From Amaurobius ferox (lineage: Eukaryota > Arthropoda > Arachnida > Araneae > Amaurobiidae), in contig OX578133.1 in the NCBI GenBank assembly GCA_951213105.1, positions 143,078,851 through 143,142,850 of the forward strand: DNA of 64,000 bases, given 5' to 3'. The notes below the pieces were generated by a model, which did not search any database, was not told the origin of the DNA, and saw nothing but the letters and a program-made list of their open reading frames with translations. Both the position numbers and the translations under genes were made by a program. Below are positions 1,435 through 44,606 of this stretch, piece after piece (position 1 is the first letter of the stretch; each line of letters starts with the position of its first letter).

Positions 1435-2161
1435 ATGAATTCATTTACAAGTAAGTATCCTAAAACTAGTAATCATAATGTTTACATGTGAACGTAAAAA
1501 TAATTTTCTGATAGTTTCCAGCTTCTTTTTTAGATTTTGATCATATTATTGGCGAAGAACATGAAAAAACATTGAAGAGAAAAAGAAACGATGGTATCTT
1601 CAAGAAAGAAAAGAACCCGAGAAAGAATTTACCTGAACCATCTGACTGTTATAATGAGACAGATTCTGTTTTATCAAACGGTATAATAACGTATTTTTAT
1701 TTTTTTTTCCGAGATTTAAAAGACAATTCATGTAGAATTAAAAAAATTATTTCATTATTTTTCAAATTATCTACTATTTTTTAGATGTAACTGGAACACA
1801 ACAACCACCAATAAAGGAAATGAAAATAAAGAAAAGGAAACACTCCGTAAAAGAATTCGAAATTACACCTTCAATTTCAAGTCATCCATCTCATGATCCA
1901 GAACCTCAACCTGCATCCAAATATGATGTGGTGTTGAGTCACGATAGCGAAGGTAAAAAATTGATTCCTGATTATTCCGTTTACTTAGGTAACGGTCTCA
2001 GTATTCAAATAAAAGAATTTAGGAAATCGAATTACATATGTCTAACCCGCGAATATGAAAATGTAGTGAAAAATCGGTTTAATATTCCTATAACTGCATT
2101 AGACAATCTTATAAAAGGAATGCAATTTATTATTTCATTTATAAAATCTTGTGATAAATAA
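1435..2161 (+). CDS. PC4/Sub1-like single-stranded DNA-binding protein, three coding exons
   Basis: Coding exons 1435-1450, 1534-1680 and 1785-2161 join through GT-AG introns into one open frame of 540 nt (179 aa). The N-terminal ~110 residues are low complexity and basic, with KRKRN and KIKKRK nuclear-localisation-like runs. Residues ~115-175 resemble the PC4 fold: YLGNGLSIQIKEF, then REYE, then a helix after NIPITALDNLIKG, in the order of PC4 strands and C-terminal helix. PC4-family proteins bind single-stranded DNA and act in transcription, replication or repair. The stop lies 38 bases before the polymerase ATG, so the two are likely co-expressed. The splice model keeps frame across both introns, which supports it. 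Assignment rests on motif similarity, not an alignment score. Confidence 0.65.
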
Positions 2162-2198
2162 CCTTATTATTACTGTTATTTCTCATCTTTTGATTTAT

Positions 2199-5100
2199 AT
2201 GTTTTATTTGAAGGAATACTCATTTCAGAATTATGTTCAAACATTTCGTACCGATTTGGAAAATTATTCTGATCCATTAACTGCGTTAATAGATAATAAA
2301 AATGAAATTTTTAACTTATTAAATAATAGCGTATCTTTAAGAATACGTTTTATTATATGTGAATGTGTTGAATTCATTAAATATGAAAATATAGAAAAAA
2401 ATGAATATATAAAACAAGAATTTTATTTTTCATCATTTTGCGAAAGATTATTATCACAATATCAAATAGATGAAAAAATAGATAACGCTATCAAAAAAAT
2501 AATATCTTCAATTGAAAACTTTTTACGATTAGGTAGTGGGTGGATCATTAATGATATTAAATATATTGAGGTGCATTTAGGGTTATATAGTGAACCAAAC
2601 GGAGGGTGTGGGTTTGTAATACTACCAAAAATATTGAAAGCTAAAAAATGTGTCATCCATGTTAAAAATTCTGATCTAAAGTGTTTTTTATATTCTGTTT
2701 TAGCTGGAATATTTCCTATGATAAATAATAAATCCAACCCTACTTCATTTAAAAAATATTTAAAATATTTAGATTTCAATTTTCTTAATTACCCTGTTAA
2801 AATAACTCAAATACCCGAATTTGAAAGAAAGAATAATCTTAAAATTAACGTCTATGGGTATGAAAATAATCTATTCCCGATATATATTAGTAAAATTAAA
2901 AATAAGAAAGAAATAGATTTGATGTTATATAAAAATCATTATTTTTTTATTTCTAATTTCAACAGATTGTTATGTGTGAAAAATGGATTACATTTTCATT
3001 GTAAAAATTGCCTTTCATCATTTCAAAGAAAAGATACTTTAAACACCCATCAATTATTTTGTTTAGAGAACAAACCCGAACGCATAAGAATGCCAAAAGA
3101 CGGTGAAAACTTTATGAGATTTAAATCATTTCAAAAATTATTGAAAACAAATTTTGTGATTTATGCAGATTTTGAAAGTTTGATCATACCTCTCGAAACA
3201 GTATTCCCTTCACAAAAACAAAGTTATACAGTTAAAACTCAAGTCCATGAACCTATCTGCTATGCATTGTTTATTATAACTGATGATAAAAAAATTGTTT
3301 ATCATAAATATTATAGAGGTGGTGATTGTGTGGAAAATTTTCTTACAACTTTGCAAAAAATAGAGAATACTTTATCTAACTATCTGCAAAGAAATGTTCC
3401 AATGATCGATTCTGATTTTTCAAAAAGTTCGAAATGTTATATTTGCGGTAAACAGTTTAAAACAGGAGATATAATTTCTAGAGACCATAACCATATAACG
3501 GGACGATTTAACGGATTATGTCACTCCTCCCCATGCAATTTAAATTTACAAATATCGCCTTTTATACCTGTTGTTATTCATAATTTAACTGGATATGATT
3601 CTCATTTGATTTTTAAAAAAATTTCAAACAGATTTGCCAAAAATATTCGTGTTATACCAATAAACAATGAAAAATTTACTACCTTCACAATTGACCGATT
3701 AAAATTTTTAGATAGTTATAATTTTTTAAGTTCACCTCTATCAAAGCTGGTTGATACTTTAAATATATCAGATTATAATTTCCCTATTTTTAATGAATTC
3801 TTCCCCTCAAAAAAGAAATATCAGTTATTAAGAAGAAAAGGTGTTTTTCCTTATTCATATTTAAATAGTGAAATAAAATTAAATGGTGTTGAACTCCCCT
3901 CTAAAAAATGTTTTTTCAATGATCTCACAAACGAGCACATAACTGAAGAAGAATATATGTTTGCGAAAAAAATTTGGAAAAAATTTAAATGTAAAACTTT
4001 TGAAGATTATCTTAAATTATATTTATTTTGTGATTGTATACTATTAGCAGAAGTGTTTGAAAGTTTTAGAGATATCACTATGAAAATCTATAATTTAGAA
4101 GCATTGGAATTCATATCAGCAGCCGATTTAACTTGGAGTGCAGGACTTAAAATGACAGATTGCACCCTTGAACTCATTAAAGATGTAGATATGTATCTGT
4201 TACTTGAACATGGAATACGAGGAGGGGTGTGTATGGTTGGTAAAAGATTCAGCGAAGCAAATAATATTTATATTCCAAAAACATATAACCCTGATTTAGA
4301 AGAAAAATACATAATATCTTTAGATGTGACTAACCTTTACGGATATGTTATGTCGAGTTATTTACCAATAGGGGATTTTAAATGGTTGAGTTCTAAGGAA
4401 ATAGAACAATTTAATATATTTAAAGTTACACCCGATTCAGATATCGGATATATATTAGAAGTAGACTTATCCTATCCAGAATCCTTACACGATGAACATG
4501 AATCTTTTCCTTTGGCAGCGGAACACGTTGAAGTTACTTATGATGATTTATCACCATATCAAAAACATTTATTACATCAGTTTAATTTAAAGTTTAATAA
4601 AACAAAAAAGCTTATTCCAAATTTAAACGATAAAAAAAGTTATGTAGTTCATTATTTAAACTTACAATTTTATTTAAAACAGGGAATGATTTTAAAACAA
4701 ATTCATAGAATAGTTTCCTTTCGCCAAACACCATGGTTGAAACCCTATATCGAATTGAATAATAACGAACGCAAGAAGGCGAAAGGAAACTTTTTTAAAA
4801 ATTTTTTCAAATTAATGAATAACGCATTTTTTGGTCGTACGTTATTAAATGTTAGAAAACTAAGAAACGTTTCAATCGGTATTACCGAAAAAGAATGCAA
4901 AAAACACTTACAAAGTTCGTGTTTAGATTATTTTCAACCGATTAACGAACATTGTGTTTTATTTAAAAAAAAACGTAGTACTTTATGTTTAAATAAACCG
5001 ATTTATATTGGATTTACTGTATTGGAATTAAGCAAACTTCACATGCATCGAATTTACTATGAAGTTTTTAAAAAATATTACAATGATAAAGTCACATTAT

Positions 5101-5597
5101 TATATACAGACACTGATAGTCTGTGTTTAGAAATAAAAACTCATGATATTTATGAAGATATGGCAACAGAACTCCCTAATATCTTCGATTTTTCGAATTA
5201 TGAACAAGATCATTTCTTGTATAATACTGGGAACTATATGCGGTTAGGATTTTTAAAAGATGAAACAAGAGGTTTACCTATTAAAGAGTTTTGTGGTTTG
5301 AAACCAAAAATGTATTCATATATTTTTGGAACGGAATGTAAAAAAACAGCAAAAGGAATAAAAGCTAGTGTTTTGAAAACTCTTCAACATGATAATTTTA
5401 TCAAAACATTACGAAATGATGATTTATTACGAAATAAACAATCTCAAATTATTAGTAAAAATCATGAGTTGTGTACTGTTAACCTAAATAAAATTTCGTT
5501 AAGTAGTTTCTATGATAAGAAATATATATTAGATGATAAAATTACATGTTTGTCTTACGGACATTATATGATAAAAAGTATAAAACAGGAAGAATAA
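2199..5597 (+). CDS. Protein-primed family B DNA polymerase (Polinton/adintovirus/bidnavirus-like), intact
   Basis: The 1132-aa ORF starts at the first ATG; the same frame is open from 2151, overlapping the PC4 stop. A C2HC zinc motif (about CKNC to HQLFC) comes first. Then come exonuclease motif I (D324-F-E326), an endonuclease-VII-like zinc insert (CYICG at ~413, DHNHITG, CNLNL), Exo II (N462...YD467) and Exo III (YLFCD612). Polymerase motifs follow: A (D709, DVTNLYG), B (K871, KLMNNAFFG), C (YTDTDS, D971/D973) and KxY (KMY). Every catalytic residue I looked for is present and there is no internal stop, so the gene is recent or still selected. Length fits protein-primed polymerases of Polintons, adintoviruses and bidnaviruses. 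Enzymes of this family replicate linear DNA from a protein primer. No integrase or capsid gene is nearby, so the exact element type is open. Confidence 0.93.
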   Translation: MFYLKEYSFQNYVQTFRTDLENYSDPLTALIDNKNEIFNLLNNSVSLRIRFIICECVEFIKYENIEKNEYIKQEFYFSSFCERLLSQYQIDEKIDNAIKKIISSIENFLRLGSGWIINDIKYIEVHLGLYSEPNGGCGFVILPKILKAKKCVIHVKNSDLKCFLYSVLAGIFPMINNKSNPTSFKKYLKYLDFNFLNYPVKITQIPEFERKNNLKINVYGYENNLFPIYISKIKNKKEIDLMLYKNHYFFISNFNRLLCVKNGLHFHCKNCLSSFQRKDTLNTHQLFCLENKPERIRMPKDGENFMRFKSFQKLLKTNFVIYADFESLIIPLETVFPSQKQSYTVKTQVHEPICYALFIITDDKKIVYHKYYRGGDCVENFLTTLQKIENTLSNYLQRNVPMIDSDFSKSSKCYICGKQFKTGDIISRDHNHITGRFNGLCHSSPCNLNLQISPFIPVVIHNLTGYDSHLIFKKISNRFAKNIRVIPINNEKFTTFTIDRLKFLDSYNFLSSPLSKLVDTLNISDYNFPIFNEFFPSKKKYQLLRRKGVFPYSYLNSEIKLNGVELPSKKCFFNDLTNEHITEEEYMFAKKIWKKFKCKTFEDYLKLYLFCDCILLAEVFESFRDITMKIYNLEALEFISAADLTWSAGLKMTDCTLELIKDVDMYLLLEHGIRGGVCMVGKRFSEANNIYIPKTYNPDLEEKYIISLDVTNLYGYVMSSYLPIGDFKWLSSKEIEQFNIFKVTPDSDIGYILEVDLSYPESLHDEHESFPLAAEHVEVTYDDLSPYQKHLLHQFNLKFNKTKKLIPNLNDKKSYVVHYLNLQFYLKQGMILKQIHRIVSFRQTPWLKPYIELNNNERKKAKGNFFKNFFKLMNNAFFGRTLLNVRKLRNVSIGITEKECKKHLQSSCLDYFQPINEHCVLFKKKRSTLCLNKPIYIGFTVLELSKLHMHRIYYEVFKKYYNDKVTLLYTDTDSLCLEIKTHDIYEDMATELPNIFDFSNYEQDHFLYNTGNYMRLGFLKDETRGLPIKEFCGLKPKMYSYIFGTECKKTAKGIKASVLKTLQHDNFIKTLRNDDLLRNKQSQIISKNHELCTVNLNKISLSSFYDKKYILDDKITCLSYGHYMIKSIKQEE

Positions 5598-21340: not shown

Positions 21341-21600
21341 CGTTTTCAAGGCCATGGATCAAGTTGCCCTACGCCCATTAAGCGGGCTGCACATTCTGGG
21401 TCGAGAAGAAGAAATGGTTATGGCGAGAGAGACTGCTCGAGGAGGAGCTGAGTTCCATCCTGGAGGACGCCCAAAACTATCCCATGGAGAATGAAGACGA
21501 TAAATCTGTAGGTCCAAAGCTCCTTTCGAGAGGTGGTGGGTCTTGGAAAAAAGGGTACCATCCCTGTGGTTGTCATTCCCATGGGGTTACGATTTAAATT
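21341..21600 (+). other. GC-richer island with short open frames
   Basis: One frame runs from about 21376 to 21594 without a start codon and includes KKKWLWRERLLEEELSSILE, a charged helical stretch; another frame starts at 21353 (MDQVALRPLSG). Composition differs from the AT-rich surroundings, so this may be a piece of a transposon ORF. I do not recognise the protein. Confidence 0.25.
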
Positions 21601-21734
21601 ATATGGGTCTCTCTAAGTCATCCGAATAGTTATCTTACACCTTCGGGAAGGTCATACGTTCTGGGTTACAAGAAAGACCATCGATGTCACCGTACTAACA
21701 AACAGACTTAATTTATTTGGTCGCCATTCTAACG

Positions 21735-22868: not shown

Positions 22869-22882
22869 ACAAGTGTACAATA

Positions 22883-22941
22883 CCGGCCGTCCAACTAGTT
22901 ACTCTAAGTCCTCAGGACGAGTCGGACGGTCTGGGTCTTCA
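22883..22941 (+). mobile_element. Tiny 59-bp inserted element with RNA-like fold, copy 1
   Basis: A 59-bp segment sits between perfect 14-bp direct repeats ACAAGTGTACAATA (22869-22882 and 22942-22955). It can fold as an 8-bp outer helix, GGCCGTCC (22885-22892) with GGACGGTC (22924-22931). This encloses a hairpin made of ACTC/GAGT and GTCC/GGAC with loop TCA. The tail is TGGGTCTTCA. There are no terminal inverted repeats and no A-tail. It shares most of its sequence with 25025-25085. Confidence 0.85.
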
Positions 22942-22974
22942 ACAAGTGTACAATAGAAGTCTGCACAGGTCAAA

Positions 22975-23115
22975 TTAAAAAAATATATATATCGGGCCTG
23001 GCGCCTGGCGCTAAACTACCAAGATTTAACCACACTCCAGCCTAAGTTTTTTCCAAAATAATTTAACAGAGCCCGGCCTGGTGATTTTTTTTAATACAGT
23101 GGAGCCGGTCTAAAC
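22975..23115. repeat. GC-rich patch (GGGCCTGGCGCC, GCCCGGCCTGG)
   Basis: Short GC-rich words stand out from the AT-rich surroundings; a similar patch with GACCGGGCCGGCCCGAA lies at 29570-29720. Possibly ends of degenerate hAT-like non-autonomous elements; not proven. Confidence 0.3.
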
Positions 23116-23230
23116 CTAACACACTGTTGACTCGTATACTGATCAAAATTTGCCATTTATGGAATTAAACACAAATTATATTACATATAGTAATAAATAA
23201 AAGAACAGATATTTGAAAAATCTGTACAGA

Positions 23231-23545
23231 TTACGAATGAGCATTACTATAGTCCAAAATTGGCATGGCATCTACACCCGCACGAAGATATTTGGAAAAG
23301 ACATCGCCTTGACAGTAGCCATAGGACACTCTGTATCGGTCCAACCCTGCGGGATCAGGGAAAGCAGCCACCTCGGGAAAAAAACCTGCATAACCCCAAG
23401 CCCGACCCATCTGGAGAAAACAGCGACCAGTCGCCGGATAGAGTGGACAAAGGGCGCAAGCACGAAAAAAGAACAGCCACCATACCCCTCTGAATCGACA
23501 CTCAACTTCTAACACTTTATTGAACAAAACATTACATTGAATCAA
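23231..23545 (-). CDS. Unassigned coding-like island, possible 3' exon
   Basis: The minus-strand frame of 104 codons ends at TAA (23231). It has balanced amino-acid composition, unlike random frames here, e.g. GLDRYRVSYGYCQGDVFSKY near the end and stop after DYSNAHS. The stretch is GC-richer than its flanks. Acceptor-like sites on the same strand (TTTTCTCCAG, GATCCCGCAG) could define a smaller exon. Other frames on both strands are open too, so the reading frame is uncertain. I recognise no family. Confidence 0.25.
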   Translation of the reverse strand: MIQCNVLFNKVLEVECRFRGVWWLFFFRACALCPLYPATGRCFLQMGRAWGYAGFFPEVAAFPDPAGLDRYRVSYGYCQGDVFSKYLRAGVDAMPILDYSNAHS

Positions 23546-24734
23546 AATTTTACAAATGATTCACAGAGCTGTAGTAAACAATACATTTCAAAGAGAAGCA
23601 GATTGTGTACGTGTTCATCACATGCCCTTAATGCTCCCCATATCAGGTAACTTCTGGACTGTGCGTTCTAATCATTTCCCCCCCCCCCCCCATGCTCTCC
23701 ATCCAAGTAAGACCCACGTCCCCGGTAGTCTTCCTTCTCTGGATCAAGTGGAATGGGAAGCTCGCTCCTAATTGTTCCGCTGCTCCTTGCTTCGGCAAGT
23801 GAAGCTCAGGTTTACCGCAATTTCAAAAATTATAAGTACAAAACAACTTCAAAGCATTTAAAAGTTCAATACCAAAGGAATGCTATTCACCATACAAAAT
23901 TTTAAACCTATTTAGAATTTTCAACAGTAGCGTACTTAATAAGTTTGATCTTTTCAAAAAGGAGAAAGTGGAAACATGTACAATACAGTACTTACGTACA
24001 ACAAAAACAGATTTTAACTTGAACTCAAAATGACATAATTGTTTAAAAACAGACAAACACTTTATACATCCGCATCAGATAATAGCTAAAAACATGTTAT
24101 GTATATAAATCACTTTTCAATTTCCTCACTAAGCAAGGGTGAGATTCGAGATTAAAATTCAGTAATTGCTCAGCTCACATCCTTTCATACAATATTAATA
24201 GTAAAATCAAGAAGTTACAATACTTTGCTTACTAATACAAAAGCCGGTCATCAAAAGGTTTAAATTCAAAAGCGTATACCCATTATATAACTCCCTACAT
24301 ATAACTCACTTTATAAGCATTATTATAAAGTGAATTTTTAATTATCATTTTGGTTGAATAATAAGATATAAAATGAGAAAACGTCTCTTCATTGAGATTA
24401 TGTTTAAAAAATTCACCCTTCATCCATTTAAATTATTCATTAGTAAGCAATGCAATGCCCCTCATGTTAAAGCACATCAGCACCAGATATTCTTGATTGC
24501 AAGGGTAACAAAACAAATATGTCATGCACTGCTAGAACTGTCAGTGTTTTCGAAAACATTTCAATGCGATTAAACGTTCTGTGTGCGTACATATATATTC
24601 TTTTCATTGATTATGACACAGTTAGTTATGAATATTTTTTAAATTTAATAATTTTAACATGAAAGTGTAAGATGTTTAAAATACAAGTATAAATAAATGT
24701 AAAGACAATAATTCGTTTTATCCATATATTAATT
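23546..24734. other. Non-coding DNA with poly(C) tract
   Basis: A run of C at about 23679-23691 interrupts the region. No gene supported. Confidence 0.4.
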
Positions 24735-26451
24735 ATTTTCCTTATATACATAGTATAATGTATAAGGAAAGTATTGTGACGGGGACGAAAATTCGAATTC
24801 GAGTTTTTGACGGGAGAGCACGTTTCAAGCATTCCTAAACACGAATTAGACGTTTTTAAGGTGATGTCTGTGTATGTGTGTGTGAAAGTATGTGTGTGCA
24901 TGTTTCAGTGAGTTTGTGAAGACGATATCTCACGAATGAATGAAGTGATTCGAGCAAAATTTGGTACAAAAAATCACAATCAGTGTATACTGAAAGCCTA
25001 TTGTTTTTACACACAATCGAATGTGTGGCCGTCCGTCCAAATAGTTGCTCAAGTCTTCGGATGAGTCGGACGGTCTGGGTCTTCAACACAATCGAATGTT
25101 CAGAACCCACCTCAATTTTGAAATTCAATTTTGTAAAAATCATCAAAAAATGAAAGCATTCTATAAAGTTACGTAAATAATCATTTCTTATATATTTTTT
25201 CATTAGAAAACGATTAACATGAACTTTAGAAAGCTAGCATGAACCGTTCTCGCGATATTGCACACTTTCCAAATACATTTATCAAAAAATCACATAAAAT
25301 TCATAAAAAGTATTAACTATTGTGAAATCTGTTCACTTTTCATATGTAATATTATGCGATAAATTTATTATCATCATTTTCGTAGATCTATCTCTTTCCA
25401 TTCACGAGACAAGACACTTCGGGTAATAGCATTCTAACTTGACGCCATTATCGTTTATCTACTATAAGAATAACCTATGTCTACATCCACAATGCCTGGC
25501 GAAACATTGACGATGAATTTGGCGGAATATCGCCAACTTGGCGAGTTTTTTTAAATGTTGCCATATTGACGAAAATATCGTTTAATTGATAAAAATGTCA
25601 CCAAATTGATAAAAATGACGTTAAATCAATGAAAATGAAGATGAAAATTCAATATCTTGGAAACAATATAAGAATCTACTATAACAGAAGATACTTTGGG
25701 TCATGCTTTTTTATGTGGACGCTATTAGTCTTTTATCTACTTTAAGAATAACCTATTTTTCCGACCATAATGCTTGACGAAATTTTGGCGACAAATTTTG
25801 CGGAATATCACCAACTTGGCGATTTTTAAATGTCGCCAAATTGATAAAAATATCGTCAAATTGATAAAATTGTCGCCAAATTGATAAAAATGTCGCCAAA
25901 TTGATGAGAATGAAGCCAAATCAATGAAAATGACAACTAATTAATGAAAATTCATTATTTTGGAAACAACATAAGAATAACCTATTTCACCATCTGTAAT
26001 GCTTGGCGGAATTCTGGCGACGAATTTGGCGACATATAGCCAACTTGGCGAAATTTTCAGTATTGCCAAATTGATAAAAATGTCGCCAAATGGGATGCAA
26101 TGTTTTGTCAATTTTTAATGCATACCTTTTATTATATAAGAAATGCTCTTATTAATTTATTATTACATGAATGAATGCTTGATGAATTTATTATTAAAAT
26201 ATTTAAATATATGGACTATATTGATTATTAAGGATGTTATCAATATTGATAATTGTTAATTTAGAGTTGCGTAAAATATAAGTTAATTGCGTACGAAATA
26301 GTTTTACATGTTGTCAGCCGAAAAAGCGCCGAATGTATAATTTAACGTTACAAACAGACACTGTGCCGTAGATTTTTTCATCACTTTTTTTACCGTTAAA
26401 GAAGTAAATTCATTGCATTATATAAGGAAAGTCATGTGCTACCCACATCAG
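24735..26451 (+). mobile_element. R1 family element, long subtype, carrying a tiny insertion
   Basis: Left end is a palindrome (TTTTCCTTATATACATAGTA, TAATGTATAAGGAAAGT); right end is TATATAAGGAAAGTCATGTG then CTACCCACATCAG. The interior has TGTGTGTGAAAG-type GT repeats, TATTACATATG...AAAAGTGAA blocks inverted relative to 16600-17560, and many CGCCAAATTGATAAAAATG units. No ORF of significance. The 61-bp element at 25025-25085 is inserted in it. Confidence 0.7.
25025..25085 (+). mobile_element. Tiny 61-bp inserted element with RNA-like fold, copy 2
   Basis: Flanked by perfect 14-bp repeats ACACAATCGAATGT (25011-25024 and 25086-25099). GGCCGTCC (25027-25034) pairs with GGACGGTC (25068-25075) around a hairpin CTC/GAG plus GTC/GAT with a TTCG tetraloop. 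The tail TGGGTCTTCA equals copy 1. Sister R1 copies at about 26850, 31047 and 34111 have the uninterrupted site (e.g. AATTGAATGTTCAG), showing that this is an insertion. Confidence 0.88.
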
Positions 26452-26599: not shown

Positions 26600-27965
26600 A
26601 CTTTCCTTATATACATACTATAATATATAAGGAAATTATTGTGACGGGATCAAGAAGAATTCGAATTTTCGACGAGAGAGTACGTTTTTAAGCATCCCTG
26701 AACACGATTCAAACGTTTTTGGGGTGATGTCTCTGCGTGTGTGTCAGTGAGCCTGTGGAGACGATATCTCACAAACGAATCAAGCGATCCAAAAAATATT
26801 TGGTACAAAAATCACAATCAGTAAATACTGGAAGCCTATTGTTTTTACACGCAATTGAATGTTCAGAACTTTCCTAAAGTTCGAAATGAAATTTTATAAA
26901 AATCATCAAGAATTGAAACATTCAATAAAGTTACCAAATTGACAAAAATGACGCCAAATCAATAAAAATGAAGACTAATTGATGAAAATCCAATATCTTG
27001 GGATGAATAAGAATCTACTGTAAGAGAAGACACTTTGGGTACAGTTTGTATTTGGACGCTATTAGTTGTTTATCTGCTGTAGGAATAACCTATTTCTCCA
27101 ACCATAATGCTTGACAAAATTTTAGCTACGGATTTGTCGGAATATCGCCAACTTGGCGAGTTTTTAAATGTTACCAATTTGATAAAAATGCCGCCAAATT
27201 GATAAGAATGACGCTAAATCAATGAAAATGATAACTAATTAATTAAGATTCAATATTTTGGAAAGAATATAAGACCACCTTAAGACTCCGTCTGTAACCC
27301 TAGGTAAAATTCTGACTACGAATTTTGGTGGCATATCGCCAACTTGGTAATTTTTTTAAATTTTGCCATATCGACAAAACTGCTGTCAAATTGATAGAAA
27401 TGTTATCAAATTGATAAAAATGTTATCAAATTGATAAAAATATCCCCAAATTGATAAACATGACGTCTAATAGGATGCAATATTTTGCAAATTTTTAATT
27501 CCGTCATATGATGGGCATTTTACCATTATGATGGGCATTTGATGGGCATTATGATGGGCATTTTACCATTTATTACATAAGAAATGCTGTTTTAAATATT
27601 GCCAACTTGGCGATATTCTGCCCCACATTGACGAAAATATCGTCAAAATTGCAAAAATGACTTCAAGTTAATGAAAATGACAACTAATTGATGAATTTAT
27701 TATTAAAATATTTAAATATATGGACTATATTGCTTATTGAGGATTCTATCAATATTGACAATTGTTAATTCAGAGTTGCTCAAAATATAAGTTAATTGGG
27801 TACGAAATAGTTTTAGATGTTGTCATCCTGATGTACAATTTACCGCGCCAAATGTACAATTTAACGTTACAAACACTGTGCGGTGGATCTTTCCATCACT
27901 TTTTCACCGTGAAGGAAGTAAATTCATTGCATCATATAAGGAAAGCCACGTGACGCCCACATCAG
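26600..27965 (+). mobile_element. R1 family element, long subtype
   Basis: ACTTTCCTTATATACATACT...AAGGAAATT start and ATATAAGGAAAGCCACGTGA...CACATCAG end. Interior rich in CGCCAAATTGATAAAAATG units and a local GATGGGCATTTTACCATT duplication near 27508-27570. Confidence 0.7.
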
Positions 27966-30801: not shown

Positions 30802-32368
30802 ACTTTTCTTATACACATAGTATAATGTATAAGGAAAGTATAGTGACGGGATTGAAAATTCGAATTTGAGTTTTCGACAGGAGAGCACGTTTCAAACATC
30901 ACTGAACACGAATCGAACATTTCTGAGGTGGCGTGTGTGTGTGTGTGTCAGTGAGTGTGTGGAGATGATATCTCATGAACGAATAAAGCGATTCGAATGA
31001 AATTTGGAACAAAAATTACAATCCATGAATACTGGGAGTCTATTGTTTTTAAACGCATTCGAATGTTCAGAACTACCCAAAATTTACAAGTGAAATTTTG
31101 AAATCATCAAAAAATCAAAACCTTTAATAAATTTCCGCAAATAGACATTTCTTATTAACTACTGTGAAATATGTTACCTTTTCATATGTAATATCATGCA
31201 ATAAATTTGGTGACACCATTCTCGTGGATCTAGTTCGTTCCATTCATGAGAAAAGGTACTTTGGGTAGTACGTTTGAATTTGAATGCCAATAGTCATTTA
31301 TCTGCTAAAAGAATAACTTATTTCTGCGTTCATAACGCTTGGAGAGATTTTGGCGAAGAATTTGGCAGAATATAGCCAACTTGGCTACTTTTTAAATGTT
31401 GTTAAATTACCGAAAATGTCGCCAAATTGATAAAAATGACGCTAAATCAATGAAAATGACGACTAATGGATGAAAATTCAATATCTTGGAAAGAATATAA
31501 GTAACTACTATAAGAATGACCTAGTTTTTCGACCGTAAATTTTGGCAGAATTTTAGTAACGATTTTGTGGGAATATCTACGACTTGCTGACTTTTAAAAG
31601 TTGCTAAATTGATGAAAATGCCACCCAATTGATAGAAGTTCGCCAAATTGATGAAACCGACACTAAATCAATGAAATGACGACTAATTAATGAATGTTCA
31701 ATATCTTGGAAAGAACAGACTATAAGAATAACCCATTTCTCAGTCCGTCCTTAACGTTTGGCGAGAAATTTAGCGGGACTTCGCCAGTTTGGCGACTCTT
31801 TTAAATGTTGCCAGAGTGACAAAAATGTCGACAAATTGATAAAAAATAACGCCAAATGGGAAGAAATGTTTCACAAATTCTAATTTCCGTCATGTGACAG
31901 GTATACCTTCTAGTATGCAAGAAATGCTCTTCTCTCTGTTTGTATGTAACACTTGGTGATGCATTTAGGCAAACTTGGCGAATAATCTGGCAAAATATCG
32001 CCAACCTGGCGATATTTTGATCTAGATTGACTAAAATATCGTCAAAATTGCAAAAGTGACCCTAAATTAATGAAAATGACGCCTAACTGATGAATTAATT
32101 ATTAAAATAATTTAATATATGGACTATATAGCTGATTGAGAATGATATCAATATTGATAATTGTTTATTTAGAGTTGTACGAAATATAATTTAATTGGAT
32201 ACTTTGAAATATTTTTACATGTTGTCTTCCGGAAAATCGCCAAATGATAAACACACAGTACCGTGGATCCACGATAAAAACACAGTACCGTGGATCTTAC
32301 ACATTATTTTTTTACTGTAAGCGTAGTAAATTCATTGCAGTATATAAGGAAAGTCATGTACTGCCAAA
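30802..32368 (+). mobile_element. R1 family element, long subtype
   Basis: ACTTTTCTTATACACATAGT...ATAAGGAAAGT left palindrome; TATATAAGGAAAGTCATGTA right end. Same interior as 24735-26451, without the 61-bp insertion. Confidence 0.7.
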
Positions 32369-33856: not shown

Positions 33857-34824
33857 AATTTCCTTATGTACGTAATGCTATATATAGGGAAAGGTTTATG
33901 ACGGGGTCGAATATTGTAATTCGAGTTTTTGCTGGAAATGCACGTTTCAAGCATCCCTGAACTCGAATCAAATGCGTTTGAAGTGATGTTTCTCTTTGTG
34001 TGTGTGTGTGCGTGTGTATGTGTGTGCGCGTGCGCTCGATATTTCTCGAACGAATAGAGCAATTCGAGAGAAATTCGATACAAATATTACAATAAGTGAA
34101 TACTGGAACCCTATTGATTATAAATGCAATCGAATGTTCGGAAGACTCCCCTAAATTTTCGAACAAAATGTTGAAAAAATCATTAAAACATCAGAATTTT
34201 CAATAATGTTACGTGAATAATGATTTTTTATGTAATTTTTTATTTGAAAACGACTGCCACAAATTTTAGAACCGTAGCATAAACCGTTCTGGAAATACTG
34301 TGTACATTTTACAAAAAAAAAATGAATAAAAATAAAAAATAAACTTAAAATAATTTTAAAATACAATAACTATTGTAAAATATATTTACTTTTCATATGT
34401 AATAGGCGAACAATTTGTTAACTCTCTTGGATCTAGTTCGTTCCATTCACTAGAAAAAATAATTTGGGTAATAATTTTGTATTTTAACGTCCAACAATTC
34501 CCCAGTAACCATTTACAAAATGGTTACTGGGAATGGTTTTATGAAATACGAAACTCAACATTTTCTATACGTTATATATATATATATATATATATACTTG
34601 TTTTCTATACGTTATATATATATATATATATATATTTGTAATTTTTGCAAGCTGGCTATGTGAAAAAAATATTTTACATATATATATATATATAATTTAA
34701 TATAATTTCAAATATATATACGTGTCATTTTGTGCAGTTAAACTCAATTCAATGGATTATTAAGAAAGTGAAAAAAATATGAATTTGAGTTTGTAGGGAA
34801 AGTCATATGCTACTCCCGTCACAC
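33857..34824 (+). mobile_element. R1 family element, diverged copy
   Basis: Left end TTTCCTTATGTACGTAATGC...AGGGAAAGG and right end GTAGGGAAAGTCATATGCTA. Contains two duplicated blocks CTATACGTTATATATA at about 34560-34635. Confidence 0.6.
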
Positions 34825-40680: not shown

Positions 40681-41460
40681 AGTGACTAGCCGCCTTTGGC
40701 GACCAGCCTGTTCGCAACCCTTGAAAATGCTGATCGTGGCAAATTCCAACCGTGGCAAACTCGTTGGCGCGACCTACCATAAAGGTGTAAGGTAACTGGT
40801 TGGACGGCCAGGATGTGCCACCCAATTTAGACCGGAACCCAGTGGGGGAGGCATCCACAGGGAACGTACCCTCCTTCCCCTACCACCAATCTCTCGGAAA
40901 AACATACGGACCCATATGTTTAACGTGATCGTACTCCGCGTGAACATGGCTGCAGTTTTGGCAGTGGCGGGAATCGAACCCGGGCCTACCGCGTGCAATT
41001 CCCGCGCGCTAACCACTGGGCTACTTCGCCCTCCGCGACAATCTCCATAACTTTATTTTTATTCACCCAATTTAGACCGTACCCTCCTTCCCCTACCACC
41101 AACCTCTCGGAAGGACTCACGAACCCACATGTTTAACGTGATCGTACTCTGCGTGAACGTAGCGTAAGTTTTGGCAGTGGCGGGAATCGAACCCGGACCT
41201 ACTGAGTGAAATTCCCGCGCGCTAACCACTGGGCTGCCGCGCCCTCCGCGACAATCTCCATAACTTTCTATATATTCACCCAATTTAGACGGGAACCCAG
41301 TGGGGGAGGCATCCACAGGGGCCGTATCCTCCTTCCCCTACCACCAACCTCTCGGAAGAACTTACGGACCCACATATTTAACGTGATCGTATTCCACGTA
41401 AACACGGCGGCAGTTTTGGCAGTGGCGGGAATCGAACCCGGGCCTACCGCTAACTTCCCG
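40681..41460 (-). repeat. tRNA-derived SINE array, left block (one full copy plus two partial units)
   Basis: Minus strand: A box GTAGCCCAGTGGTTAGCGCG and B box GGGTTCGATTCCCGCC, then AGTACGATCACGTTAAACAT and GGATGCCTCCCCCACTGGGT. The full copy (40681-41034) extends through CCAACCAGTTACCTTACACC to GGCTGGTCGCCAAAGGCGGC. Partial units end early and join through a TTATGGAGATTGTCGCGGAG linker. B boxes lie near 40974, 41187 and 41431. Confidence 0.8.
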
Positions 41461-42310
41461 CGCGCTAATTTGCAATTTAAAATGACCATATGCTTAATTC
41501 CGTCATCCTCATTCCATTGTTTCATTGTTCCATCATTTAAAATATTCATAAAATTAAAATATCCATTTAAAAAAATCCAAAAGTTAAACTATACATTTAA
41601 AAAATCCATATCGTTCCATCATTTAAAATATAAATATAATAATTTATATGGAGTAAAGGAGCTCTATTCAGAACCGTGACGTCACCTCCACCTTGACGTC
41701 CCTACCCACCACCTTCCCTCCTTCTGCGGGGGAGAAACGCCGGTTAAGAAGCGGCACGCCGAGCGGAACGCTGAGAAATTGAAATTCGGAAACTTTTAAA
41801 ATCCCGATCCTGTGGGCAATACAGAATATTTCCTGACCAGATTGGACTTGTAAGAATGCCAGATGTTTGACCTTTCTAAAAATGTAAATTATGAGTCGAA
41901 ATTATGAGTACTTTTTACTATGCGAGAATTTAAAAACCAAAAATCGTTTTTTTGAGCCAAAAGTGACTTTTGTTTTAAAATCATAAAAAAATATTAGAAT
42001 TTGTCCCTGAGATTTGAAATTGATATATTTTTACTTGAAATTCTCTGCTCTTTCCGATGGTGTGATTTGTTTTTTTCTACAATGTCTGGATCGTGGAGAA
42101 AAAAGAGCAAAAAGGTCAAAAAACGGTCGAAATCGCATAAAACATTAAATAACAAAAAAAATAATTAAAATTTTAAAAATCGGTTTTCACGTGTCCCCTT
42201 CCCACCCCCCAGGGTCTCCGATTGCCAAATTTCATAGCTCTCCGACGCGCGGTCGCGAAACGTATAGTGTATAAGACAGACACACACACAGACATTGCCT
42301 TTTATTATTT
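41461..42310 (+). repeat. ~800-bp repeat D1, copy 1
   Basis: Starts with ATCC/CATTTAAA-rich direct repeats, then GTGACGTCACCTCCACCTTG, GAGAATTTAAAAACCAAAAA and TCTCCGACGCGCGGTCGCGA. It ends GTATAAGACAGACACACACA, then CATTGCCTTTTATTAT. No protein. Copies 2 and 3 follow at 43796 and 44607. Confidence 0.8.
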
Positions 42311-43795
42311 ACTAGCCGCCTTTGGCGACCAGCCTGTTCGCTACCCTTGAAAATTCTGACCGTGGCAAACTCGTTGGCGCGACCTACCAGAAAGGTGTAA
42401 GGTAACTGCTTGGAAGACCAGGAAGTGCCACACAATTTAGACCGGAACCCAATGGGGGAGGCATCCAAAGAGACCGTACCCTCCTTCCCCTACCACAAAC
42501 CTCTCGGAAGGACTTGCAGTCCCACACGTTTAACGTGATCGTACTCCGCGTGAACACGGCTGCAGTTTTGGCAATGGCGGGAATCGAACCCGGGCCTACC
42601 GAGTGAAATTCCCGCGCGCTAACCACTGGGCTACCGTGCCATCCGCGACAATCTCCATAACTTTATTTTTATTCGGCAATTTTGGGAATCGAACCCGGGC
42701 CTACCAAGTGCAAATCCCGCGCACTAACCACTGGGGTACTTCACCCTCCGCGATATTCTTCATAACTTTCTTTTTATTCACCCAATTTAGACCGGAACCA
42801 AGTGGGAGAAGCATCCACAGGGACCGTACCCTTCTTCCCCTACCACCAACCTCTCGGAAGGACTTACAGACCCACATGTTTAACGTGATCGTACTCCGCG
42901 TAAACACGGCGGCAATTTTGGGAATCGAACCCGGGCCTACCGAGTGCAATTTCCGCGCGCTAACCATTGGGCTACTTTGCCCTACGCGACAATCTCCATA
43001 ACTTTCTTTTTATTCATCCAATTTAGACCGTACCCTCCTTCCAATACCACCAACTTCTCGGAAGGACTCACGGACCCACATGTTTAATGTGCTCGTACTC
43101 CGCGTAAACACGGCGGCAATTTTGGGAATCGAACCCGGGCCTGGTAACTGGTTGGACGGCCAGGATGTGCCACCCAATTTAGACCGGAACCCAGTGGGGG
43201 AGGCATCCACAGGGAACGTACCCTCCTTCCCCTACCACCAACCTCTCGGAAAAACATACGGACCCATATGTTTAACGTGATCGTACTCCATGTCAGTGGC
43301 GGAAATCGAACAAGGGCCTACCGCGTGCAATTCCCGCGCGCTAACCACTGGGCTACTTCGCCCTCCGCGACAATCTCCATAACTTTCTTTTTATTCACCC
43401 AATTTAGACCGTACCCTCCTTCCCCTACCACCAACCTCTCGGAAGGACTCACGAACCCACATGTTTAACGTGATCGTACTCTGCGTGAACGTGGCGTAAG
43501 TTTTGGCAGTGGCGGGAATCGAACCCGGGCCTACTGAGTGCAATTCCCGCGCGCTAACCACTGGGCTGCCGCGCCCTCCGCGACAATCTCCATAACTTTC
43601 TACATATTCACCCAATTTAGACGGGAACCCAGTGGGGGAGGCATCCACAGGGGCCGTATCCTCCTTCCCCTACCACCAACCTCTCGGAAGGACTTACGGA
43701 CCCACATATTTAACGTGATCGTATTCCACGTAAACACGGCGGCAGTTTTGGCAGTGGCGGGAATCGAACCCGGGCCTACCGCTAACTTCCCGCGC
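42311..43795 (-). repeat. tRNA-derived SINE tandem array, right block
   Basis: One full-length SINE at the left, then repeated truncated units; seven B boxes near 42580, 42691, 42925, 43128, 43305, 43521 and 43766. Spacing ranges from about 110 to 245 bp. The last two units plus D1 copy 2 repeat the arrangement at 41060-42310, showing a segmental duplication. Confidence 0.8.
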
Positions 43796-44606
43796 GCTAA
43801 TTTGCAATTTAAAATGACCATATGCTTAATTCCATCATCCTCATTCCATTGTTTCATTGTTCCATCATTTAAAATATCCATAAAATTAAAATATCCATTT
43901 AAAATATCCAAAAGTTAAAATATACATTTAAAAAATCCAGATCGTCCCATCATTTAAAATATAAATATAATAATTTATATAGAGCAAAGGCGCTCTATTT
44001 AGAACCGTGACGTCACCTCCACCTTGACGTCCCCACCCACCACCTTCCCTGCTTCAGCGGGGGAGAAACGAACGGAACGCCGAGAAATTTAAAATCATGA
44101 CGTCTTTAAAATTGCGATCCTGAAGGCAATTTTCATTATTTCTGGACCAGATTAGACTTGTAAGAATGCCAGATATTTCAGCTTTCTAAAAATGTAAATT
44201 ATTAGTCGAAATTATGAGTACTTTTTACTATGCGAGAATTTAAAAACCAAAAATCGTTTTTTTGAGCCAAAAGTGACTTTTGTTTTAAAATCTTTAAAAA
44301 ATATTAGAAATCGAAATGGAGATTTGAAATTGATATATTTTTACTCGTAATTGTCTGCTCTTTCCGATGGTGTGAGTTGTTTTTTTCTACGACGTCTGGA
44401 TCGTGGAGAAAAAAGGGCAAAAAAAGGTCGAAATCGCATAAAACATTAAATAAATAAAAAAATAATTAGAATTTTGAAAATCGGTTTTCACGTGTCCCCT
44501 TCCCTCCCCCCCAGGTCTCCGATTGCCAAATTTCGTAGCTCTCCGACGCGCGGTCGCGAAACGTATAGTGTATAAGACAGACACACACACAGACATTGCC
44601 TTTTAT
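43796..44606 (+). repeat. ~800-bp repeat D1, copy 2
   Basis: Same order of blocks as copy 1, closer to copy 3 (shares GAGCAAAGGCGCTCTATT and a shorter GAGAAACGAACGGAACGCC segment). Confidence 0.8.

Follow-up and report, generated by a model that had tools for sequence, protein, structure and literature searches.

Thousands of LINE tail pieces carrying a covarying 3′-terminal RNA module in the spider Amaurobius ferox

The genome of Amaurobius ferox holds thousands of pieces of LINE tails, and two of them lie in the window, by which we mean the whole 64,000-nucleotide stretch of DNA analyzed here. The 59 nt in question are a conserved, covarying 3′-terminal RNA module of R1-like LINEs. The explanation that we favor, and consider reasonably probable, is that the window inserts are 5′-truncated copies of such LINEs made by target-primed reverse transcription (TPRT), with the cDNA arrested at the edge of the module.

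Copy 1, a 59-bp 3′-terminal LINE module of subtype ii (AACTAGTTACTCTAAGTCC), occupies positions 22883–22941 of the plus strand between a left (22869–22882) and a right (22942–22955) perfect 14-bp target site duplication (ACAAGTGTACAATA). Copy 2, a 61-bp 3′-terminal LINE module (AAATAGTTGCTCAAGTCTTCGGATGAGTC; 25025–25085), lies on the same strand between perfect 14-bp duplications of its own (ACACAATCGAATGT; 25011–25024 and 25086–25099), and TTTTTAC, found directly before the left one, matches the target consensus given below. The target of copy 2 is present once and unbroken in three sister repeats, also on the plus strand, at 26849–26862 (ACGCAATTGAATGT), 31053–31066 and 34124–34137. Both copies have the arms GGCCGTCC/GGACGGTC, an inner hairpin and the common end TGGGTCTTCA. 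The earlier note had described the two related inserts with their duplications, the three empty sites and the shared fold in these terms, and our analysis bears it out; to the description we can add an additional GTCC in the 5′ arm of copy 2. Similar words at 43934 and 44725 belong to an unrelated AT-rich repeat and were set aside. Elsewhere in the window, an open reading frame at positions 2145–5597 (1150 aa) has no Pfam match; judged by eye from its motifs, it resembles the family-B DNA polymerases of Maverick-like elements.

Across the 3.56-Gb genome (276 contigs), the 18-base end GGACGGTCTGGGTCTTCA had 17,422 exact matches, a count that takes in the tails of longer elements too, and the reversed pattern, which served as a control, had none. 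Our sample of 96 copies comes from the first 100 matches listed, at one end of contig C1 (0–20.2 Mb), four of which were removed by duplicate and edge filters. Of the 96 copies, 73 were flanked by perfect duplications 10 bp or longer, versus a mean of 1.36 and a maximum of 4 when right flanks were shuffled among copies. Taken together, the abundance of the 18-base end and the frequency of duplications relative to their controls exclude chance. The duplications were 13–16 bp long in 63 of the 73 cases. The script detected no duplication of at least 10 bp in the other 23 copies, and this counts against the explanation that we favor.

Base counts at the target were made on 52 copies with duplications among the first 67. 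The duplication begins with A (50/52), C (51/52), A (43/52) and C (35/52), and is preceded by C at −1 (36/52) and A at −2 (29/52), so that the target is approximately TTAC|ACAC. An endonuclease-like target joined to duplications is a mark of 5′-truncated LINE copies, and the 73 duplication-bearing copies with their TTAC|ACAC site display it. Waldo-type LINEs of the R1 clade insert in ACAY repeats; they resemble the present elements in having ACA-rich targets. Re-insertion into the left duplication, beside an older copy or a SINE, was seen at L003, L021/L022, L009 and L025. Other arrangements were also observed. L013, L038 and L039 are palindromic pairs of two truncated copies, and these three together with L023 form palindromes in which a LINE 3′ end points outward at either side, as though each of the two target strands had served as a primer. 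Several stubs and truncated LINEs (L064, L066, L102, L107, L047 and L095) are inserted at a favored target within a SINE tail, TTACCTT|ACACCTTTCTGGTAG. Viral contigs gave no match to the module word.

Evidence that the module acts as RNA comes from comparison among copies. Folded singly, the two window copies were modestly better than shuffled sequences on the plus strand (z −1.91 and −1.51) and the minus strand folded about equally (z −1.86 and −2.49); because single-copy folds beat shuffles only modestly, the case for structure rests on covariation. In a first alignment (A2, 32 copies), 95.1% of cells pair, compared with 19–46% in slid controls, and there were 18 double changes versus 4.8 in shuffles, a level reached by 0 of 500; the number of pairs with a double change was reached in 125 of 500. 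The search word used for A2 fixes the last 18 bases, so its outer 3′ arm could not vary. A second alignment (A3) was built from 31 divergent copies collected with a looser pattern that leaves the arms largely free, part of the four outermost pairs still being fixed. Here 94.2% of cells pair (slid controls, 21–45%) and double-sided changes occupy 71 cells versus 18.9 in shuffles, again reached by 0 of 500; 8 of 16 pairs show double changes, a pair count reached by 39 of 500 shuffles. The covariation score was likewise reached by none of the 500 shuffles in either alignment, and further pair types did not rise above shuffles in A2 or A3. The exchange of both arms can be read directly from module versions such as GGCCGTCC/GGACGGTC, GGCCATCC/GGATGGTC, GGCCACAC/GTGTGGTC and GGCCATAC/GTATGGTC. 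Rfam returned no RNA family for the 59-mers and no known ribozyme family for the 59-nt module. The hairpin GTCC-loop-GGACGA resembles hammerhead stem II; a hammerhead-like core was rejected since the module lacks the conserved bases of that core and no ribozyme was matched in Rfam.

The module is found at the ends of full LINEs. LINE sequence lies upstream of it in at least 6 of the 96 sampled copies (L015, L047, L057, L095, L097 and L098). One LINE, L081, has an ORF2 of 1066 aa in which RVT_1, Exo_endo_phos_2 and RNase_H domains lie in one frame. The nearest solved relative of its endonuclease is TRAS1, and the nearest named relatives of the ORF2 are R1DM-type spider proteins (43–45%), an unnamed protein reaching 61%. 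Judged by protein sequence, the combination of an APE-type endonuclease, reverse transcriptase and RNase H with R1-type nearest named relatives suggests that the parents may belong to the R1 clade. A genome search with the L081 ORF2 scored 43 of 42,282 candidates, many of them with an open frame of 1174–1178 aa. From the 43 ORF2 matches listed we fetched 16 LINE 3′ ends, and all 16 close on a version of the module; their tails form four groups, namely a tRNA-headed SINE (5), GGCCATCC (2), GGCCACAC (5) and GGCCATAC (4).

Individual stubs could be matched to individual LINEs. The module of L132 is the same, base for base, as that of L016 and other stubs, and it follows an ORF2 C-terminus (66.7% to L081 over 102 aa) and a 3′ UTR, so that L132 is a LINE with a subtype-i module. 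In L095, LINE sequence that includes an ORF2 C-terminus is contiguous to a module identical to that of stub L037, and in L098 LINE sequence is contiguous to the module of stub L033. L132 and L095 thus share their 3′ termini with stubs, as 5′ truncation would have it. Among the LINEs examined, none was seen to bear the subtype-ii module of window copy 1, a point against the explanation that we favor. L047 was considered as the 3′ end of the L081 LINE and rejected; it is a truncated LINE of about 400 nt with its own 14-bp duplication, and sits in a SINE tail inside the 3′ UTR of the L081 LINE. For the L079 LINE, a full-length duplication is represented only by a candidate with one mismatch in a locally repeated stretch. 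A LINE group at 79% identity (L126–L129) is clustered at contig ends and on small contigs (C7 at 0.08–2.0 Mb, C13 at 148.5 Mb, C78, C169 and C211), and the four fetched copies have a common right flank beginning TGCTACCCCCC, possibly a sign of site-specific insertion in a repeat or array.

A longer SINE, which by eye looks tRNA-headed, carries a related module at its 3′ end. The window contains an array of damaged copies of it, with the related module at the 3′ end, at 40770–43800 on the minus strand; positions 21486–21674 hold a sequence related to its body and tail at 70% identity, with a degraded module. In the LINE group that matches the L081 ORF2 at 98% identity (L115, L116, L117, L118 and L130), all five fetched copies end in the tRNA-headed SINE, at a constant distance from ORF2 (module at about 402–405 of the piece) and with an (AAC)n tail, from which it seems that this LINE adopted a SINE as its own 3′ end. 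The view taken in the earlier note of independent mobile insertions without an A-tail, placed by TPRT, was right, as were the expectations of compensatory changes in a structured RNA, of duplications clustered in length and of copies not always lying inside one larger repeat, and the longer parent for which the note suggested looking was found. Its proposal of an unusually small retroposon stands in part: the insert is mobile and probably of TPRT type, but it is probably not a self-standing unit, since full LINEs and a SINE end in these 59 nt.

Among the 73 copies with duplications, 59 nt is the commonest insert length (24 copies), and 44 fall between 58 and 64 nt, with 16 shorter and 13 longer; part of the longer ones are repeated flanks, as in L009, which measures 58 or 85 depending on the script. 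It is unusual for inserts to pile up in this way at a single structural edge, 59 nt before the end. The 16 shorter inserts fit 5′ truncation, which predicts them, and truncation inside the module does occur, as inserts of 28–57 nt with good duplications attest. A subtype-i word with C required nine bases before CCGG gave 639 matches. Among 100 subtype-i copies listed, 65 start exactly at CCGG and 10 at CGG, 14 have CTTC-CCGG and 11 are diverged; the base before CTTC-CCGG in the 14 is mixed (C 7, T 3, A 2, G 2). An apparent difference in 5′ ends between sub-variants (6/8 versus 1/10 long starts, Fisher p 0.013, post hoc) was dropped when 100 listed copies of one sub-variant showed CTTC in 14 and the CCGG start in 65. 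Only two of the 100 subtype-i copies listed, L131 and L132, reach GCTAACTTTCC, which forms the 3′ arm of a hairpin further upstream, and the hairpin-linker-module junction GCTAACTTTCCTTCCCGGCCGTCC has 102 exact matches genome-wide. For ordinary truncation this is a very low share, and it speaks against the explanation that we favor.

The hairpin itself has 10 bp and lies a few nt upstream of the module in the predicted folds of L132 and L057. It is missing from those of L095 and L119, the other two of the four LINE pieces folded, all four folds score only slightly better than shuffles (z −0.28 to −1.64), and in the longer piece of L132 the outer arms of the module are predicted to pair with other sequence. 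These folds count against the explanation that we favor, as does the position of the commonest end (59), which coincides with the module base and falls a few nt short of the L132 hairpin. A further point against it is that SINE-type module-only copies (L025, L046, L088 and L136) begin at the helix base too, and the SINE sequence upstream is different. Because these copies share the same edge, and given the weak or absent hairpin folds, the hairpin cannot be the whole cause; by these models it may favor the stop in some families, and the module edge itself seems to matter.

A plausible scenario for arrest at the module edge is as follows. The LINE protein would recognize the 3′-terminal module and nick the bottom strand at TGT|GTAA, a position that we infer from the TTAC|ACAC target under a target-primed mechanism. 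At the nick, first-strand synthesis would then be primed on the RNA terminus ...UUCAACA. The module would be copied and the cDNA would usually stop at its 5′ edge or at most 5 nt beyond (59–64 nt), perhaps often against an upstream hairpin, after which second-strand synthesis would seal in a stub of 59–64 bp.

We rank this scenario above one in which the template was already short, and that in turn above an independent mini-SINE. In the second case, nucleases would trim LINE or SINE RNA back to the module, which bound protein or its own great stability would protect, or the RNA would be cleaved at this point, and the resulting 59–64-nt 3′ fragment would pass through full, normal TPRT. The inserts would then end at the helix base whatever lies upstream, as LINE and SINE types alike do. 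The CCGG and CGG starts would fit, the mixed base before CTTC-CCGG is what template ends plus an added base would give, and longer copies should be very few, as they are. Against such a template stand the 28–57-nt inserts with good duplications, which are truncations inside the module, and some copies with C before CTTC that run on as LINE sequence (L131 and L132). We treat a short template as a real but clearly less probable possibility. Its wider form has about the same probability: the module would be the unit of spread, stable 3′ fragments of LINE and SINE RNA, 59–64 nt long, would be the usual template and each LINE family would shed its own stub family. If true, this would rank with the smallest RNAs to have given rise to thousands of genomic copies.

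It is also conceivable that a 59–64-nt RNA is transcribed from source genes of its own and borrows the LINE protein. Subtypes i and ii (42/96 copies) occur without a LINE body among the sampled copies, and there are several closely related variants, each with several copies; nevertheless, a LINE with the subtype-i module exists, other stubs match their own LINE families (L037 with L095, L033 with L098) and no RNA family match was obtained, and we judge such a minimal SINE unlikely. The arms, being inverted repeats near the ends, might suggest a DNA transposon or a MITE that makes 14-bp target duplications. However, there are no terminal inverted repeats, the right arm being set back 10 nt from the 3′ terminus, and the duplications vary in length; the 5′ ends vary while the 3′ end is fixed at TTCA in the sampled copies (the search word fixed TTCA too), LINE and SINE parents have a common 3′ end, and the 5′-truncated and LINE-bodied copies contradict it. 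We give this reading almost no weight.

Related systems have been described. A LINE 3′ stem-loop shared with a SINE is needed for retrotransposition in eel UnaL2 and zebrafish ZfL2 (PMC4176376). These stringent pairs resemble our case in that stem-loop common to LINE and SINE; our elements differ in belonging to an R1-like group and in having a three-helix module of about 50 nt, a TTCA end followed by an ACA-rich target, and very many module-only copies. Arthropod R1 of ancestral type makes 14-bp duplications, comprises truncated and full copies and has 5′ junctions that are precise, with microhomology or with extra bases (PMC2718515), all of which we see here; unlike that R1, our elements are without a tie to 28S rDNA and their truncations pile up at the 59-nt boundary rather than spreading out. 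The tailless retropseudogenes of mammals are likewise short TPRT products that lack an A-tail and terminate at structural features of the RNA (PMC5322556), but they are cut at the 3′ side and primed internally by LINE1, whereas our inserts keep a constant 3′ end and are truncated at the 5′ side. Among the papers that our literature searches listed, none was seen to deal with tail-only LINE stubs.

Insertions of 60 bp would be overlooked by repeat annotation that filters on length. The pile-up at the module edge lets one ask what ends LINE cDNA synthesis, be it template structure, a lost contact between protein and RNA or the length of the template, and the covarying LINE families, the SINE and the stubs within one genome constitute a natural mutagenesis set for an RNA element that would be recognized by an R1-like LINE protein.
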